Origin: Candidatus Anaeroferrophillus wilburensis
GTDB taxonomy: Bacteria; Desulfobacterota; Anaeroferrophillalia; Anaeroferrophillales; Anaeroferrophillaceae
Direction: 5' to 3'
Length of the DNA stretch: 49,028 nt
NCBI GenBank assembly: GCA_016934315.1
Contig: JAFGSY010000033.1
Location: 1-49,028, forward strand
Position 1 is the first letter of the stretch. Each line of letters starts with the position of its first letter. The notes beneath the pieces are model-generated. The model did not search any database. It saw only the letters and a program-made list of their open reading frames with translations, and was not told where the DNA came from. A program made the position numbers and the translations under genes. Shown piece after piece: positions 37,329-45,410 of the stretch.

Positions 37329-38714
37329 CTATTCGCTGCCCGTTGTCTCTGTAAGCAGAGAAATGAAATCCTCAAATTTGAAATTTGCACTTCTGTTAAT
37401 GGTTTCAAGGTAGGCAAAATCGATCCTGAATCGATAGCCAAGCTCGGACTGGATGTGACGGGCCAAAGCGCTTTCCTCATCCACGGTCAGCGGTCGACCA
37501 ACAACAAGCCTGGCTTCAATTTTATCCAGATGGGTCTGAACCAACTGGTACTGCAGCACAGGAGCGATCTCGGCATATTTGTTTTCACCAAGGTAGGGCC
37601 ATTTTTTTTCTCCGGTAGGATAGGTCACCATATTCCTGACCCGGCCGAGGATACGACGTAAAACGGGAAGTCCGCGACCGCACGAACAAGGCTCACCAAC
37701 CTCGGCATAATCACCTATCTCATAGCGGATAAAGGGCATGGCAAAATTGTAGAACGGCGTCAAGACCAACCTGCCAACCTGACCCGCGGCAGTCGGTTGA
37801 TCATGGTCATCAAGCACTTCAACCAACATAGTTTCCGACTGCACGTGATAATGATCATTTTCAGGACACTGCAAAGCGATATAGCCGACCTCCTGGGCGG
37901 AATAGATATCCACCACCGGGGCATCCCACGCCTGCCGGCAAAGGTCTCTGAGCCTGGATGATACAACTTCGCCAACCGTACGAATTTCACGCACATTCGT
38001 CAGCCGCAAGCCTTGTTCAATAAACAGGTCGGCCAAAGCATGCAAGTTGGACGGAAAAGATATCAGATATTCAGGGTTCTCGGCGCAAAGCCATTCGGCC
38101 TGCCGACAAATATCATTCTGAATATTCAGCAATGAGGATTGACCCGTTCGAAAGATGATATCTGTTGCAGGCCCCCAGCCTGCCACACAGGAACCATCTC
38201 GCTGATCACCAGGATCCCACTTCGACCTGCGGATGGCAGACAATTTCCCGGAAAAATCTCTTTTGTGCCAGAGGTGCTCACGAACAGTAATAACCTTCCA
38301 GAAGAGCTGCTCCAACTCGGTGGACAGCATGGTGATCGGCCTGCCTGTTGAGCCGGATGTCTTTTTCTGCATGATTCTGCCATGCTTCACCGGCGGCAGA
38401 TTACTAACCAGTTCTTTCTCATGCGTCTGGACATCCTGCCTGGTCAGAACCGGTATTTCCCCCCAAATCTCACGAAGTTTATCCGGCCCCATACCCAAAG
38501 GCATGCCGCTGAACATTGTACGATAATAGGGCACGGTTCTTCTGGCATGGGAACACACTTCGGCGAGCTGACGGAACTGCATTGCGGCAATCTCCCCGGC
38601 CGAAAACCATTGACTTTTGTCAAGTTGACGAAGGAGTGCCAGCATTTGATCTCCTGCGGCAGTCGGAATGACTGACCTGGAGTGGAGAGGAATTGAGGAT
38701 ACAAATTCTGACAC
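37329..38714 (-). CDS. PaaK/CapK-like adenylate-forming enzyme
   Basis: A 461-residue member of the phenylacetate-CoA ligase-like branch of AMP-forming enzymes. The phosphate loop TSGSTGRP (T119-P126), YSAQEVGYIALQCPE, and the GxGD-like YEIGDYAEVG are all present, and a GRVRNMVTYPTGEK segment follows. It should activate a carboxylic acid as an acyl-adenylate. Relatives near polysaccharide genes (CapK, FadD-like) have unclear acceptors. The GTG start at 38714 has AGGA about 9 bases upstream. The glycosyltransferase gene upstream on the same strand ends 69 bases before it. Confidence 0.85.
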   Translation of the reverse strand: MSEFVSSIPLHSRSVIPTAAGDQMLALLRQLDKSQWFSAGEIAAMQFRQLAEVCSHARRTVPYYRTMFSGMPLGMGPDKLREIWGEIPVLTRQDVQTHEKELVSNLPPVKHGRIMQKKTSGSTGRPITMLSTELEQLFWKVITVREHLWHKRDFSGKLSAIRRSKWDPGDQRDGSCVAGWGPATDIIFRTGQSSLLNIQNDICRQAEWLCAENPEYLISFPSNLHALADLFIEQGLRLTNVREIRTVGEVVSSRLRDLCRQAWDAPVVDIYSAQEVGYIALQCPENDHYHVQSETMLVEVLDDHDQPTAAGQVGRLVLTPFYNFAMPFIRYEIGDYAEVGEPCSCGRGLPVLRRILGRVRNMVTYPTGEKKWPYLGENKYAEIAPVLQYQLVQTHLDKIEARLVVGRPLTVDEESALARHIQSELGYRFRIDFAYLETINRSANFKFEDFISLLTETTGSE

Positions 38715-38783: not shown

Positions 38784-39704
38784 TCATGAAGAAAATTGAT
38801 AGATAACAATTGCGTCCAGTTTGCCGGCCATGCAGTTATCCATCGCGCAGTCAAGCCATGGCTTCATGCGAAAATTAATCCGTACTTCAAAATCATCCTT
38901 GACATAATCATGGAACTCCAAACCGGCCGACAGGGTTTCTTCCAACTTGTCCACTGCACCTGTTCGCGCGTACATATGAGCCAAAACCATTGCAGAGTTC
39001 AAACACTCGACCGGGAATTCCCTCGAAAAAGACCTGGCGGCAATCCCCAGATAGTACATTGCCTCGTCCCAGTCTCCACTTAGAAAATAGCCATATCCCA
39101 GGAACCAATAATGTCTGAACCAGTCCGGCTCATCTTTCACGACCGCAAGCAACGACTCCTTATAGATCCTAGCCTTGACAGCGGCCTTTCGTGCTTCGGG
39201 CTGGTGCAAAACCTTCACCTCGGAAACCCACTCCGCTCTCATACCCTTATGTCGGATGTCATACTGCATATTTTCATGTCGACTACCGGTACTACGCAGT
39301 CCATTTCGAAAGACAAACAGCTTGTAATCCTCGATCAATATTCCGCCTTTTGGGGTATTCCAAGAGCAGAAGTAACCAGCCGTTTGTTCAGAAAGGGGCA
39401 ATCCTTTGATCGATTCAACACCATCTGCAGCTATCCTTTCATCGGCATCAAGTGAAAGGATCCATGGTGTTTTAACGAGGGAATAGGCATAGTTGCGGGC
39501 ATGGGATATAAATATCCCCCGATTGTGGTCAAGGGTAAATTGAACAGGCTGGATACCGAACCGCTCAACAAGAATCTCCCGTGTTTGATCCGTGGAGCCC
39601 GTATCTACCACAACGATATCATCAAGCTGGTCGACAATCCCCCCAAGGCAAGAACCTATGGTGTTTGCTTCATCCTTGACAACCATGCATAACCCGAGTT
39701 TCAT
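38784..39704 (-). CDS. Family 2 glycosyltransferase
   Basis: A 306-residue GT-A enzyme. It has the N-terminal MKLGLCMVVKDEANTIGSCL, the nucleotide-binding VVVDTGSTDQT and the metal-binding SLDADERI. The C-terminal ~130 residues are helical and look like TPR-type repeats (WFRHYWFLGYGYFLSGDWDEAMYYLGIAARS in part), as in SunS/TPR-containing GT2 proteins. The sugar and acceptor are unknown. The ATG at 39704 has GGGAG 9-10 bases upstream; an in-frame extension to 39821 is unlikely. Confidence 0.88.
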   Translation of the reverse strand: MKLGLCMVVKDEANTIGSCLGGIVDQLDDIVVVDTGSTDQTREILVERFGIQPVQFTLDHNRGIFISHARNYAYSLVKTPWILSLDADERIAADGVESIKGLPLSEQTAGYFCSWNTPKGGILIEDYKLFVFRNGLRSTGSRHENMQYDIRHKGMRAEWVSEVKVLHQPEARKAAVKARIYKESLLAVVKDEPDWFRHYWFLGYGYFLSGDWDEAMYYLGIAARSFSREFPVECLNSAMVLAHMYARTGAVDKLEETLSAGLEFHDYVKDDFEVRINFRMKPWLDCAMDNCMAGKLDAIVIYQFSS

Positions 39705-39740
39705 ATAACAACACTCCCGAAAAAACTTATTCCCTAACAT

Positions 39741-39766
39741 ATGGCCGCATAACAAGAAGCGGCCAT
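39741..39766. terminator. Hairpin between cyanophycin-synthetase-like and GT2 genes
   Basis: ATGGCCGC (39741-39748) pairs perfectly with GCGGCCAT (39759-39766). No T tract follows on either strand, so it may be an attenuator, an mRNA-stability element or a factor-dependent terminator after the ligase gene. Confidence 0.4.
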
Positions 39767-39866
39767 TTCCGCTTTCCCGTCGTTGGTTGATTTCGATGAC
39801 CGTGGGCCTCGCTGCCGGCACAGGAGGCGGGGACGATCGCCGGCCACGTCCACCCCCGGCATCCGC

Positions 39867-42578
39867 TTAACGGGCTCGCTTCCTGCCCTGTCGCATATGA
39901 TCGCGGTAGGTCTGCGGACTAAAAGGTGGCCCCGTCTTCAGCAGATGAAACAACGCATCCCTCCTGAGCCCCGTGTCAATGCAATGCAGGGCCACGATGT
40001 CTTCCTGGTGCGCCATGGTCAATGCCCGGTGATATGCCTCGGCCTGGTCAACGACTATTTCGATGGCCTCCGAGCTGACACCGGCCGCACCGAGTCTTCG
40101 GGCCAGGATCCACGACACCTCTCCCCGCTTTCGCCCCCGCAGGGAATCCCAGTCGAACAGGATGTAATGATCGAAGCAGGCGGCCACCGCGGCGGCCATG
40201 GCCTCAAGCTGGCTGTCGCGGCGGTTGCCCGCGGCCGTCATGGCCAGGATCCTTTTGCCCGTACAGGGCATCTGCTGCACCAGATGGCAGAGGCTTGTCA
40301 GATTAGCAGCGTTCACCGGACGGTCGATAATCAACCGAAACGGCAGACCTTCATATTCACTGAGTCGCCCGGGGTTGTCCCCGACATTCGCCTCGAAACG
40401 GGAAAGGACACGTCGAATGACCGTCCCCTCCACGCCCATGGCGTGGGCGGTTGCAGCGGCCGCAAGGACATTTTGCAGGTTGTGGGGAATCAACCCGCCG
40501 CGATAGGCGCGAATCTCGGCAGCCGCCATCACCCGCTTCCTCGAAGAACCACGACCGATCATCATCTCCAGTGAGCCGTCCGCCGACCAAAAAAAGATGC
40601 TATGACCCCCAGCACGTGCATGGCCGGCCATGGGTTCCGCTTCCGGAAACATGCCGAACAGGACGATATCACAGCCTGGCGGAACATCCTTGCGCATCGC
40701 CATGCACAAGGGATCATCTGCGTTCAGAACTACCGCCCGGGTGGCGGCCCTGGCGACAGTAGCTTTCACCCTCGCCATCTCCTCCAGGGTTTCCACGCCA
40801 TCCTGTCCCAGGTGTTCGTCCGCCACGTTCAGAACGACGGCCACATCGCAACAGTCAAAACCAAGTCCGCCCTTCAGGATTCCGCCACGGGCCGTCTCCA
40901 ACACTGCCGCTCCCACGCCGGGATGATTGAAGATCCACTGGCAGGCCTCGCCGCCCGACCAGTCACCAGGTCGGAGGCGTTCTTCATCCACATAGACACC
41001 GTCGGTGGACACCATGCCGACCTTATAGCCTTGCTCCCCCAGCATCTCCTTGAGCATCCGGCAGGTGGTGGTCTTGCCAAGGCTGCCGGTGACGGCCACT
41101 GTCGGCACCCGTGATGAGCATCCCGGAGGAAACAGACCATCAATTATCGGCGAGACCACATCTCGCCCGCTGCCCTTAACAGACCAGTGGGGACGCAAGC
41201 CGGGGCAGGGATTCACCTCGATGACGGCACCGCCGCTGGCATGGGGAGACAGAGAGATGTCGGGCGTAATGTAGTCAACTCCGGCAATATCCAGCCCCAG
41301 AACCTCGACGGCCAAGGTCGCCATGTTCGCCACCGCCGGGTGGACCCGCTCCGTGACGTCGACACCGGTTCCACCGGTGGAAATGTTAGCTGTCCTCCTG
41401 AGAAAGACACGCACCCCCACCTGAGGTACCGAATCACGGGTAACCCCTTGGCCGGCAAGCACTCTGTCCGCTTCCTCGTCCAAAAAAAGTTTTTCGAGCA
41501 CCGAGCGGAAGTCAATATCACGCAAGGGGTTCTGATTCTCGACATCCACAAGCTCCCGGACAGTATGCCTGCCATCGCCGATCACACTCGCGGGGATACG
41601 CTGGGCGGCGGCCACCAGGGTGCCGTTCACCACCAGCAGGCGATGTTCAGCTCCGGGAACGAACTGCTGCACGAGGATGCCGCCCGGGAAAACGCGTAAA
41701 GCATCTGCCGCCGTCCTCCTCAACTCATCCTTGGTAGCGACCCCGACAGCCACGCCTTTGCCCTTTGCCCCGAATACGGGCTTGACCACCAGAGGAAAGC
41801 CTATCACCTCCACTGCGGCCATCAGCTGTTGATCATTCAGGAGCCCATATTGTCTGGGCACGGGGATCCCGACAGAGGCAAGCAGCTCGGCGGTGACGGC
41901 CTTATTGTTGGAAAGCTTGGAACCCACGGCGGTGGTGCTGCTGGACAGGGTCTCGAAGACCTTGCGCTGGTGGCGCCCCTGGCCCAGGCGGACGAAGCGG
42001 GCATTGTCGCTGATTCGGTGGGCGGGAATCCCTCGGGCGCGGGCCGCACGGACAACAGCCATGGTAGAAAGGTCCATGGACAGGCTCCGGGCAATCCCGA
42101 TAAATCTGTCGAACGCACCTTGAAATTGCCGTTTCGCACCCTGCCCCACACCGGCTCCCGATAGCACCGCGTCCGCCATGCGCAAACTCAGGTTCATGGC
42201 AGCTTCTGCGACCGACGATGTCTCGTAGGTGCACAACAGATCCCAGTAAGGACCGGCGCTGGCAGCATGGCAGCATGTTGGCTCCAACCGGGCTCCTGCG
42301 ACATTCTGCAGGGTGAGCGCCAGCGCCGGCAGGAGGCGCATCGCGGCGAACTCGTCCTGTTCTCGCACCTCGGAAACGGCACGAAACCAACAATTGATTG
42401 CATCGGCATCACGGAAACCAGGGGGCAACATCTCCGCAACCAGCTCCGCCAACCGCCTGTGAAAGCCGCTCGACGCGGTTTTCACAGGCTCAAGCTGAAT
42501 CCGACAATGGACGGCAGGCCAGTCGGTAAAGCAGTTACCTCCGCGGTAAGATCGTCTAAGGACAAGCTTTATGGGCAC
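39867..42578 (-). CDS. cphA: Cyanophycin-synthetase-like ligase with divergent Mur motifs
   Basis: A 903-residue protein with CphA architecture. An N-terminal domain covers ~1-200 and an ATP-grasp ~215-480 (LSNNKAVTAELLASVGIPVP, K266 in VVKPVFGAKGKG, EVNPCPGLRPH). A Mur-ligase half runs from ~490 to 890 (AVLETARGGILKGGLGFD, VVLNVADEHLGQDG, LNADDPL). Cyanophycin synthetase builds a poly-aspartate chain with arginine side groups. Two Mur signatures differ: the P-loop reads TGSLGKTTT (usually TGTNGKTTT), and the DYAHNP motif is replaced by DRPVNAA near 750. No cphB cyanophycinase is in the window. The start is GTG at 42578. G+C looks higher than in neighbouring genes. Confidence 0.87.
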   Translation of the reverse strand: MPIKLVLRRSYRGGNCFTDWPAVHCRIQLEPVKTASSGFHRRLAELVAEMLPPGFRDADAINCWFRAVSEVREQDEFAAMRLLPALALTLQNVAGARLEPTCCHAASAGPYWDLLCTYETSSVAEAAMNLSLRMADAVLSGAGVGQGAKRQFQGAFDRFIGIARSLSMDLSTMAVVRAARARGIPAHRISDNARFVRLGQGRHQRKVFETLSSSTTAVGSKLSNNKAVTAELLASVGIPVPRQYGLLNDQQLMAAVEVIGFPLVVKPVFGAKGKGVAVGVATKDELRRTAADALRVFPGGILVQQFVPGAEHRLLVVNGTLVAAAQRIPASVIGDGRHTVRELVDVENQNPLRDIDFRSVLEKLFLDEEADRVLAGQGVTRDSVPQVGVRVFLRRTANISTGGTGVDVTERVHPAVANMATLAVEVLGLDIAGVDYITPDISLSPHASGGAVIEVNPCPGLRPHWSVKGSGRDVVSPIIDGLFPPGCSSRVPTVAVTGSLGKTTTCRMLKEMLGEQGYKVGMVSTDGVYVDEERLRPGDWSGGEACQWIFNHPGVGAAVLETARGGILKGGLGFDCCDVAVVLNVADEHLGQDGVETLEEMARVKATVARAATRAVVLNADDPLCMAMRKDVPPGCDIVLFGMFPEAEPMAGHARAGGHSIFFWSADGSLEMMIGRGSSRKRVMAAAEIRAYRGGLIPHNLQNVLAAAATAHAMGVEGTVIRRVLSRFEANVGDNPGRLSEYEGLPFRLIIDRPVNAANLTSLCHLVQQMPCTGKRILAMTAAGNRRDSQLEAMAAAVAACFDHYILFDWDSLRGRKRGEVSWILARRLGAAGVSSEAIEIVVDQAEAYHRALTMAHQEDIVALHCIDTGLRRDALFHLLKTGPPFSPQTYRDHMRQGRKRAR

Positions 42579-42758: not shown

Positions 42759-45410
42759 CTAGGCCAGGCTTTTGGCCGCAATTTCATAGACATCCCGGGA
42801 AAGACCGTCAGCAGCTGCAATCCTCTCCAGCTGGCCGCACATCAATTCCTGCCGGGCCTCGTCGTAGCGGCGCCACCGGGTCATGGCGGTCAGCAGGCGG
42901 GCGGCAATCTGGGGGTTGCTGCCGTTGAGCATCAACACCTGATCGGCGAGAAAACCATAGCCGGCGCCACCGGCTTCGTGGAAGGACGCCGGGTTGCCAT
43001 GACAGAAAGTGCCGATCAGCGCCCGCACCCGGTTGGGGTTCTGCCAAGTAAAAGCGGGATGCTCCAGCAGCTGTTCAACAGTAGTCAGGGTATCGGGCCG
43101 ACCGGCGGCCGCCTGCACGGCAAACCATTTATCCAGCACCAGAGGCTCCGCCGACCATTGACGGTAAAAAGCATCAAGGGTCGCCTGCCGCTGGGGATGG
43201 TCGCTGTTGGCCAGCCCGTTGAGGGCTGCCAGCACATCGGTCATATTGGCCCCTAGGTGAAACTGCCGCAGCCCCAGATCTTGGCTTGTGGGATCGGCCA
43301 GCTTCATCAGGTAGCCGAGGCAGACATTTTTCAGGCTGCGTCGGCCGATGGCCTCCGGTTCCGGGCTGTAGGGGCCCGGGTCGGTGTTGTGCTCATACAC
43401 TACCAGCAGATCATCGCGCAGCACCGTTGCTAAGGAATGGGCCATGAACTCCCGCACCTCATGGATGGCCAGCGGATCGATAACCTCAAGTTGCTCGCCC
43501 ACATACGTTTCGGTGGGGAGCGTCAAAGCCAGGGCCCGCAGGGCCGGATCAATCTCGCGCTGCACCAGCACCTGCCGCAGCGCTTCGCTGAACACCGAAG
43601 GGATGCTCAACTGATGACCGGCACGGCGCTCGGCCAGCAGGCCCAGCATGATGCGAACCGCCAGCTGCTGGCCCGCCTCCCAGCGGTTGAAATCATCACC
43701 GTCATGGGCCAGAAGAAAGGCCAGATTCTCATCGGCATAGTCGATCTTCAGGATGACCGGCGCCGAAAACCCCCGCAGGCAGGAGAGAACCGGCAGCTCG
43801 GCCACGCCCATAAACTGGAAGGTTTCTTCCGCCTCCCGCAGCTCCAGAACCCGGGAACCGCCGGCCGGCATCGCTTCCCCGGCCAGCTGCAGGGAAATTT
43901 CTCGTCCTTCGGCATCCAGCAAACCAACAACCACCGGCAGATGAAAAGGCAGTTTCTGCTCCTGACCAGGGGTGGAAGGACAGGACTGCCGCAGGGTCAA
44001 AGTAAAGGTTTGCTGCCGGGGGTCATGGCATGTTTCCACGGCCAGCAGCGGCGTCCCCGCCTGGCTATACCAACGGCAGAATTGGGAAAAATCCCGGCCG
44101 CTCACCTCCGCCATGGCCTCGATAAAGTCTTCGATGGTTGCCGCCTGGCCGTCATGCCGTTCCAAGTAGAGGTTCAGTCCCCGGCGAAAAGCGCCGGCAC
44201 CGATCAGGGTCTGCAGCATGCGGATCACTTCAGCCCCTTTGTTGTAGACGGTGGTGGTATAAAAATTGTTGATCTCCACATAGGAATCGGGACGCACCGG
44301 ATGAGCCAGGGGGCCGCGATCCTCGGGAAACTGGCTGCTGCGCAGCAGCCGCACATCCTCGATCCTTTTGACCGCCCGCCCCATCGTGGCAGCCGAGAAC
44401 TCCTGGTCGCGAAAAACGGTCAGCCCCTCCTTGAGACTCAGCTGAAACCAGTCGCGGCAGGTGACCCGGTTGCCAGTCCAGTTGTGAAAATACTCATGGG
44501 CAATGACCCCCTCCACTCCCTGGAAATCTGCGTCAGTGGCGGTATCCGGCCGGGCGAGAACATAGCGGGAATTGAAAATATTCAACCCTTTGTTCTCCAT
44601 CGCCCCCATGTTGAAATCATCGACGGCGACGATCATGTAGCAGTCGAGATCATATTCGAGGCCATAGGTTTCCTCGTCCCAGCGCATGGCTTTTTTGAGG
44701 GCACTCATGGCATGGTCGCACTTGTCGCGGTTCTGTTGCTCCACATAGATATGGAGGGCAACCTGACGGCCGGAAGCGGTGGTAAAACGGTCGGCGATCT
44801 GCACCAGATTGCCAGCCACCAGGGCGAAGAGATAGCACGGCTTGGGAAATGGGTCCTCCCAGGTTGCCTCGTGCCGGTCATTGGGCCGGTTGTCCTGCGC
44901 TACCAGATTACCGTTGGCCAGCAGCACCGGATAGCGCTGCCGGTCGGCAATAATGGTAGTCCGGTAGCGAGCCAGAACGTCGGGCCGGTCAAGGAAGTAG
45001 GTGATTTTGCGAAATCCCTGGGCTTCGCACTGGGTGCAGAAATTGCCGCTGGAAAGGTAGAGGCCCTCCAACGCCGTATTGGCCTTGGGATTGATCTCGG
45101 TAATAATCTCCAACCGGAAGGCCGCAGGCACCTCAGTGATGGTCAGCGATTCACCATCCACCTGGTAGTCTGTTTCAAACAACTGGCGGCCATCCAGTGA
45201 AAGGGAGCGCAGAATCAACTGGCGGCCGGCCAGCACCAACGGTTTGGTGGCCGGCGAACCAACGGTGTGATTGCGGCGGATTGCCAGCCGGGAGGTGACC
45301 ACGGTCCTCTCCTCATTGAGGTCAAAAAGCAGCTCCACCTGGTCGATAAGGAAGGGCGGCGGCTGGTAGTCATGGCGATGGATGGTTTTCGGCTCGTTGC
45401 TGTTCATCAT
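42759..45410 (-). CDS. pepN: Aminopeptidase N (M1 family)
   Basis: A zinc aminopeptidase of 883 residues, the usual length for E. coli-type PepN. The exopeptidase motif GAMEN (in FNMGAMENKG, near 270) and the zinc site HEYFHNWTGNRVTCRDWFQLSLKEG (HExxH at about 304-308, second Glu 19 residues on; motif quoted in part) are intact. It trims N-terminal residues from peptides in the cytoplasm; there is no signal peptide. The start has two ATGs in a row, and ribosome binding is weak (AGGA about 12 bases upstream). Confidence 0.95.
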   Translation of the reverse strand: MMNSNEPKTIHRHDYQPPPFLIDQVELLFDLNEERTVVTSRLAIRRNHTVGSPATKPLVLAGRQLILRSLSLDGRQLFETDYQVDGESLTITEVPAAFRLEIITEINPKANTALEGLYLSSGNFCTQCEAQGFRKITYFLDRPDVLARYRTTIIADRQRYPVLLANGNLVAQDNRPNDRHEATWEDPFPKPCYLFALVAGNLVQIADRFTTASGRQVALHIYVEQQNRDKCDHAMSALKKAMRWDEETYGLEYDLDCYMIVAVDDFNMGAMENKGLNIFNSRYVLARPDTATDADFQGVEGVIAHEYFHNWTGNRVTCRDWFQLSLKEGLTVFRDQEFSAATMGRAVKRIEDVRLLRSSQFPEDRGPLAHPVRPDSYVEINNFYTTTVYNKGAEVIRMLQTLIGAGAFRRGLNLYLERHDGQAATIEDFIEAMAEVSGRDFSQFCRWYSQAGTPLLAVETCHDPRQQTFTLTLRQSCPSTPGQEQKLPFHLPVVVGLLDAEGREISLQLAGEAMPAGGSRVLELREAEETFQFMGVAELPVLSCLRGFSAPVILKIDYADENLAFLLAHDGDDFNRWEAGQQLAVRIMLGLLAERRAGHQLSIPSVFSEALRQVLVQREIDPALRALALTLPTETYVGEQLEVIDPLAIHEVREFMAHSLATVLRDDLLVVYEHNTDPGPYSPEPEAIGRRSLKNVCLGYLMKLADPTSQDLGLRQFHLGANMTDVLAALNGLANSDHPQRQATLDAFYRQWSAEPLVLDKWFAVQAAAGRPDTLTTVEQLLEHPAFTWQNPNRVRALIGTFCHGNPASFHEAGGAGYGFLADQVLMLNGSNPQIAARLLTAMTRWRRYDEARQELMCGQLERIAAADGLSRDVYEIAAKSLA

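Follow-up and report, generated by a model that had tools for sequence, protein, structure and literature searches.

A diverged relative of cyanophycin synthetase in Candidatus Anaeroferrophillus wilburensis that may attach a side chain other than arginine

Full-length enzymes that join an N domain, an ATP-grasp (G) domain and a Mur-ligase (M) domain on a single chain are annotated as cyanophycin synthetases (CphA). In TeCphA1, Glu215 holds the arginine (Arg) side chain of the acceptor, and its replacement by alanine costs most of the activity; at the M site, Asn497 stacks on the adenine and His748 contacts the gamma-phosphate (PMC9427784). The N-domain motif Cx19HxxEH is complete in 83% of CphA1s and therefore not strictly defining (PMC9262961). 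Here we consider a stretch of 49,028 nucleotides from contig JAFGSY010000033.1 of Candidatus Anaeroferrophillus wilburensis (the window, that is, the whole of the DNA analysed), in which one gene codes for a CphA-like protein of this architecture. We propose, with a probability of roughly 40%, that it is a working, re-specialised relative of CphA1, which would elongate a chain with aspartate (Asp) and add to it something other than Arg.

Architecture, functional residues and charge

The gene starts with GTG and has no internal stop. An original prediction, made from the letters of the window, had recognised the CphA order of domains together with two altered motifs, TGSLGKTTT and DRPVNAA, and both are located in this open reading frame (ORF). 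Pfam places a RimK-type ATP-grasp domain at residues 224-328, Mur_ligase_M at 496-654 and Mur_ligase_C at 757-863, following the CphA1 order. Among solved structures, CphA1 enzymes come closest, both by sequence and by predicted fold (mean predicted local distance difference test, pLDDT, 81.5; template modelling scores, TM, 0.86/0.88 to TeCphA1, 7wae). The two NCBIfam models of CphA match nearly the full length, but the scores, 715 bits for NF010623 and 704 bits for TIGR02068, lie under the cut-offs of 877 and 850, whereas two CphAs of the same phylum (L045, L046) reach 1081-1237 bits. Because its score is too low for the family and the residue that grips Arg is replaced, we describe the gene as a relative of CphA1 and do not file it as a cyanophycin synthetase; what it may make is proposed below.

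An HMMER alignment to TeCphA1, read with published roles (PMC9427784, PMC9262961), maps 20 functional residues, 15 of which are kept and five changed (E215K, H267K, N497L, D585E and H748V, in TeCphA1 numbering). The G site retains K226, K266, R313, R327, N398, S400, D435, E454 and R462 (K220, K261, R309, R323, N394, S396, D431, E450 and R458 of TeCphA1). The M site preserves the P-loop Lys and Thr, Thr522, Glu558, His586 and Arg731 (GKTTT, Thr525, Glu561, His589 and Arg738 in the window protein), so that in sequence the catalytic residues of that domain (Lys, Thr, Glu, His, Arg) are retained. These positions were compared across a further 93 CphA-type ORFs taken from fetched loci, a sample outside which beta-proteobacterial CphAs lie. 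Not one of them shows E215K, N497L or H748V: residue 215 is Asp or Glu in 84 and never Lys, residue 497 is Asn in 92, and residue 748 is His in 90. Residue 267 is His in 84, and D585E appears once, in a protein of the same order (P0001, below). The HxxEH motif, which 78 of the 93 possess, is missing from the window protein. The original prediction held that its two motifs had lost residues in contact with nucleotide, and this is borne out, as Leu and Val align with N497 and H748; neither substitution is common in CphAs, both positions being canonical in the CphA1 structures 7lgm, 7lgn and 7wac as well. E215K, H267K and D585E come in addition to what had then been noticed.

The divergence is wide, and it is biased. 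Columns in which 97% or more of 88 canonical sequences agree, 115 in number, were taken as near-invariant, partial and diverged sequences being left out. The window protein deviates at 26 of these columns, against five at most for each canonical sequence in a leave-one-out comparison. Among the sequences set aside, P0001 differs at 45, L043 at 39 and the diverged second copy of L127 at 21. Conserved acidic columns are lost preferentially, 19 of 43 compared with 84 of the 398 conserved columns of other kinds (Fisher p = 0.0019, a guide, as columns of one protein are not fully independent). Acid-to-base reversals number four, compared with two or fewer in canonical sequences. The isoelectric point (pI) is 8.57, as against 5.01-6.56 for canonical proteins (every eighth value of the sorted list); elsewhere in the genome it is 10.1 for UvrC, 5.7-6.1 for the MurC, MurE and MurF ORFs and 5.3 for PepN. 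Other loci also hold CphA paralogues that have diverged strongly: a Planctomyces contig (L127) carries two full-length CphA-like ORFs, one of which, L127_p0_1609, is of this kind and shows E215S and H748R.

The original prediction had also raised the use of another nucleotide. This finds no support, with the P-loop Lys and Thr, the Mg ligands, His586 and Arg731 all in place, and with three of the M-site changes carried by the cell's own MurF and MurE. In MurF the P-loop is of the TGS form and the motif DDTYNANP is without His, just as the M site of the window protein has a TGS P-loop and no His in DRPVNAA; MurE has EHLD, an E-H pair like that created by D585E. Because these enzymes share them, the M-site changes alone imply neither a new nucleotide nor a dead site. 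The MurE in question (L154, G000:C41) has EHLD and its order-mates L014 and L018 have DHLD.

Homologues in the order and contents of the genome

A genome of the same order and of another family (G009) holds three diverged homologues. P0001 (727 amino acids) keeps the G-site residues save 215 and 267, but its M P-loop, TGSRGTTL, is dead and the lid is missing. The gene that follows it, on the same strand, codes for P0002 (644 amino acids), in which the M P-loop, TGSVGKTTT, is intact and no ATP-grasp domain can be recognised. P0003 (621 amino acids), on a separate contig, consists of the ATP-grasp part only. That P0001 and P0002 are complementary, G being intact in the one and M in the other, suggests that both activities are still under selection and matter to the cell. 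A basic residue 215 is common to the window protein, P0001 (Arg) and P0003 (Lys); the segment CPGLRPHW recurs in P0001, the TGSxG form of the P-loop in P0001 and P0002, and P0002 shares with the window protein the replacement of GP by GG and the loss of the DYAHNP His. Common descent of the window protein and these homologues is likely. P0001 and P0002 come after HlyD-TolC genes, with sugar-transferase genes nearby.

The window genome, 2.70 megabases long and 98% complete, has a single CphA-like gene of this kind. The original prediction had remarked that the window lacks a cyanophycinase gene. This is true, and it extends to the genome, where Peptidase_S51 (cyanophycinase), Asparaginase_2 (IaaA) and IadA have no match, the search having left aside the newer cyanophycin dipeptide hydrolases. 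The five other genomes of the family give just weak ATP-grasp or Mur-ligase background matches. In a scan of 395 genomes of the phylum, five, this one included, match at E 1e-40. A contig scan of genomes with the single protein as query gave no match; in an alignment-based scan the matches listed are canonical-type CphAs at 31-40% identity, and closer kin may exist beyond the sample. In the viral_contigs scan the only matches are ATP-grasp stretches of 26% identity to residues 223-479, on four contigs (L172-L175).

Proposed activity and its alternatives

If the retained ATP, Mg and Asp residues are a guide, the G domain would use ATP to activate an acceptor chain at its C-terminal carboxylate, and would join Asp there. 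The M domain would then activate the new side-chain carboxylate, again with ATP, and join a second building block. Because the Arg-gripping residue has become Lys and conserved acids are preferentially lost, this block is most likely not Arg or Lys; the candidates would be amino acids that are neutral or acidic, and small amines. A primer should be needed, because the primer-making site of the N domain is absent. The idea that a different second amino acid is added, or another polymer made, was already present in the original prediction; E215K, the acidic losses, the lack of recognisable degradation genes and the oddities of the same-order proteins all speak for it, and it stays at the level of a proposal.

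Several observations weigh against this proposal, and some of them favour a fast-evolving but ordinary cyanophycin synthetase, whose Asp-Arg (or Asp-Lys) polymer would be degraded by an unrecognised route. The complete N-G-M architecture and the retained residues of the Asp and ATP sites fit such an enzyme. Eight of the 93 surveyed ORFs are without an acid at 215, and SuCphA1 tolerates E215A, retaining nearly half its activity; H267K is also found, as the sole case among the 93, in L033, which scores as a canonical CphA. The net charge of the window protein over aligned columns, +7, equals the highest value among canonical sequences, which run from -42 to +7 with a mean of -19. Its terminal branch is very long (2.81 against a median of 0.35) and the relatives listed are at most about 40% identical, so that some of the changes may be drift; its placement in the tree is unsure, the branch of P0001 being very long too. 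P0001 is 35% identical to the window protein and 35% to a canonical CphA, and common descent therefore rests on shared local features. Specificity in CphAs is loose, with lysine, ornithine, citrulline and glutamate reported (PMC8560796). Finally, many genomes with cphA1 have no recognised cyanophycinase, and among the beta-proteobacterial ones, whose CphAs lie outside the present survey, the share without it is 97% (PMC10206079), so the missing cyanophycinase is weak evidence on its own. Against ordinary cyanophycin stand the charge reversal at 215 joined to the preferential loss of acids, scores far under both CphA cut-offs when two enzymes of the same phylum exceed them, and a genome in which the recognised hydrolase and the isoaspartyl dipeptidase were not found. 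Taken together, these make ordinary cyanophycin an unlikely product.

The genes downstream (Table 1) point in another direction, towards a ligase that would act with a GT2 glycosyltransferase and a PaaK-like enzyme to place one or a few residues on an acyl- or sugar-bearing acceptor, making no long polymer. Both neighbours lie on the same strand, the relatives P0001 and P0002 have sugar-transferase genes nearby, and the N domain is without its primer-making site. However, the gaps from ligase to GT2 and from GT2 to PaaK-like gene, about 162 and 69 base pairs if the likely GT2 start is used, bear no evidence of promoter or terminator either way, G+C falls from about 61% in the ligase to about 50% in the two neighbours, and G009, which holds the other homologues, has no PaaK-like match. 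An operon of the three genes is possible; a glycoconjugate or small-molecule product seems to us distinctly improbable. There is still less to commend the view that the G site works alone, joining ready-made dipeptides in the manner of CphA2, or that the gene is decaying. The M motifs are altered, to be sure, and P0001 illustrates a dead M site in the same order, but the window protein keeps its GKTTT, Thr525, Glu561, His589, Arg738 and a full lid, whereas CphA2 has neither M P-loop nor lid (PMC9427784), and the ORF is intact across 903 codons. A pseudogene is unlikely, the catalytic residues being retained.

Beyond the re-specialised enzyme that we favour, a bolder proposal, doubtful as it must be, is that a small CphA-like group in one order makes a branched Asp polymer with acidic or neutral side chains in place of Arg, both steps residing on one protein here and being split over two in the relative. 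This would be a new non-ribosomal polyamide. A natural enzyme of this family in which the acceptor pocket is reversed would hint at branched polyamides of a new class and reveal which residues set the choice of side chain; a best hit named cyanophycin synthetase would then not always mean cyanophycin.

Neighbouring genes and comparison with known systems

Table 1. Positions of the CphA-like gene, its domains and residues of interest, and its neighbours in the window
Feature	Coordinates	Strand	Remarks
CphA-like ligase, N-G-M architecture	39867..42578	-	903 amino acids; Pfam, NCBIfam and structure matches, predicted fold
N domain	42081..42578	-	residues 1-166; without HxxEH metallopeptidase (primer-making) motif
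G domain, ATP-grasp	41109..42080	-	residues 167-490; ATP-, Mg- and Asp-binding residues retained
M domain, Mur-ligase type	39870..41108	-	residues 491-903; lid present
K221 = TeCphA1 E215, charge reversal	41916..41918	-	alignment to TeCphA1
K272 = TeCphA1 H267 (G-domain P-loop, acyl-phosphate)	41763..41765	-	alignment to TeCphA1
CPGLRPHW segment (canonical APG[LF]RMH)	41184..41207	-	common to same-order P0001
M-site P-loop TGSLGKTTT	41064..41090	-	residues 497-505; L500 = TeCphA1 N497
E588-H589 = CphA1 D585-H586 (Asp to Glu, His kept)	40812..40817	-	alignment to TeCphA1
DRPVNAA replacing DYAHNP or DYGHN	40305..40325	-	residues 752-758; V755 = H748
GT2 glycosyltransferase, next downstream	38784..39821	-	likely start ATG at 39704; possible link to ligase
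PaaK-like adenylate-forming ligase, after GT2	37329..38714	-	possible link to CphA-like ligase
PepN aminopeptidase N, upstream neighbour	42759..45410	-	outside the system

The nearest solved relatives of the PaaK-like ligase are the PaaK-like ligase 6siw and AjiA1. Two tandem paralogues of it (43% and 41%) occur elsewhere in the genome, at G000:C14:101381-104048 (L152), adjoining a glutamine-synthetase-like protein and an AMP-binding enzyme. Upstream, a genome of the same family (G004) retains the order MFS-PepN and its next gene is not CphA-like, which fits either gain of the CphA-like gene here or its loss there. Elsewhere CphAs have other companions. In 47 of 80 loci (L049-L128, a sample biased to loci resembling the window protein) a second, shorter Mur-ligase protein adjoins CphA on the same strand, with a P-loop in all 47 and DxxHN in 46; the literature searched yielded no account of this partner. 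At two loci of the phylum the protein that comes after CphA matches the NCBIfam model 'cyanophycin metabolism-associated ABC transporter' (L045:1-1632 and L047:4823-5776; partial, cut by contig ends).

How, then, does the window protein stand among described enzymes? With MurE and MurF it shares the fold of the M domain, but its Mur portion starts at about residue 491 and follows, in the same chain, an N domain of CphA type and an ATP-grasp G domain, and this order of domains rules out a MurE or MurF paralogue. With CphA2 (7ta5, 8fxi) it has in common a related G domain and the absence of HxxEH; the presence of both M-site P-loop and lid rules out that identity. In G009 the G and M functions are divided over two adjacent proteins, next to a third gene with ATP-grasp only, whereas here they are united. 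CphA1 (NF010623/TIGR02068; 7wae, 7lgj, 7lgn, 7lgm) has the same domain order and fold, the same ATP and Mg residues at both sites and the same Asp-binding R323, N394, S396 and R458. From it the window protein departs by an identity of about 31-40%, by scores under both family cut-offs, by the absence of HxxEH and by the five substitutions E215K, H267K, N497L, D585E and H748V.
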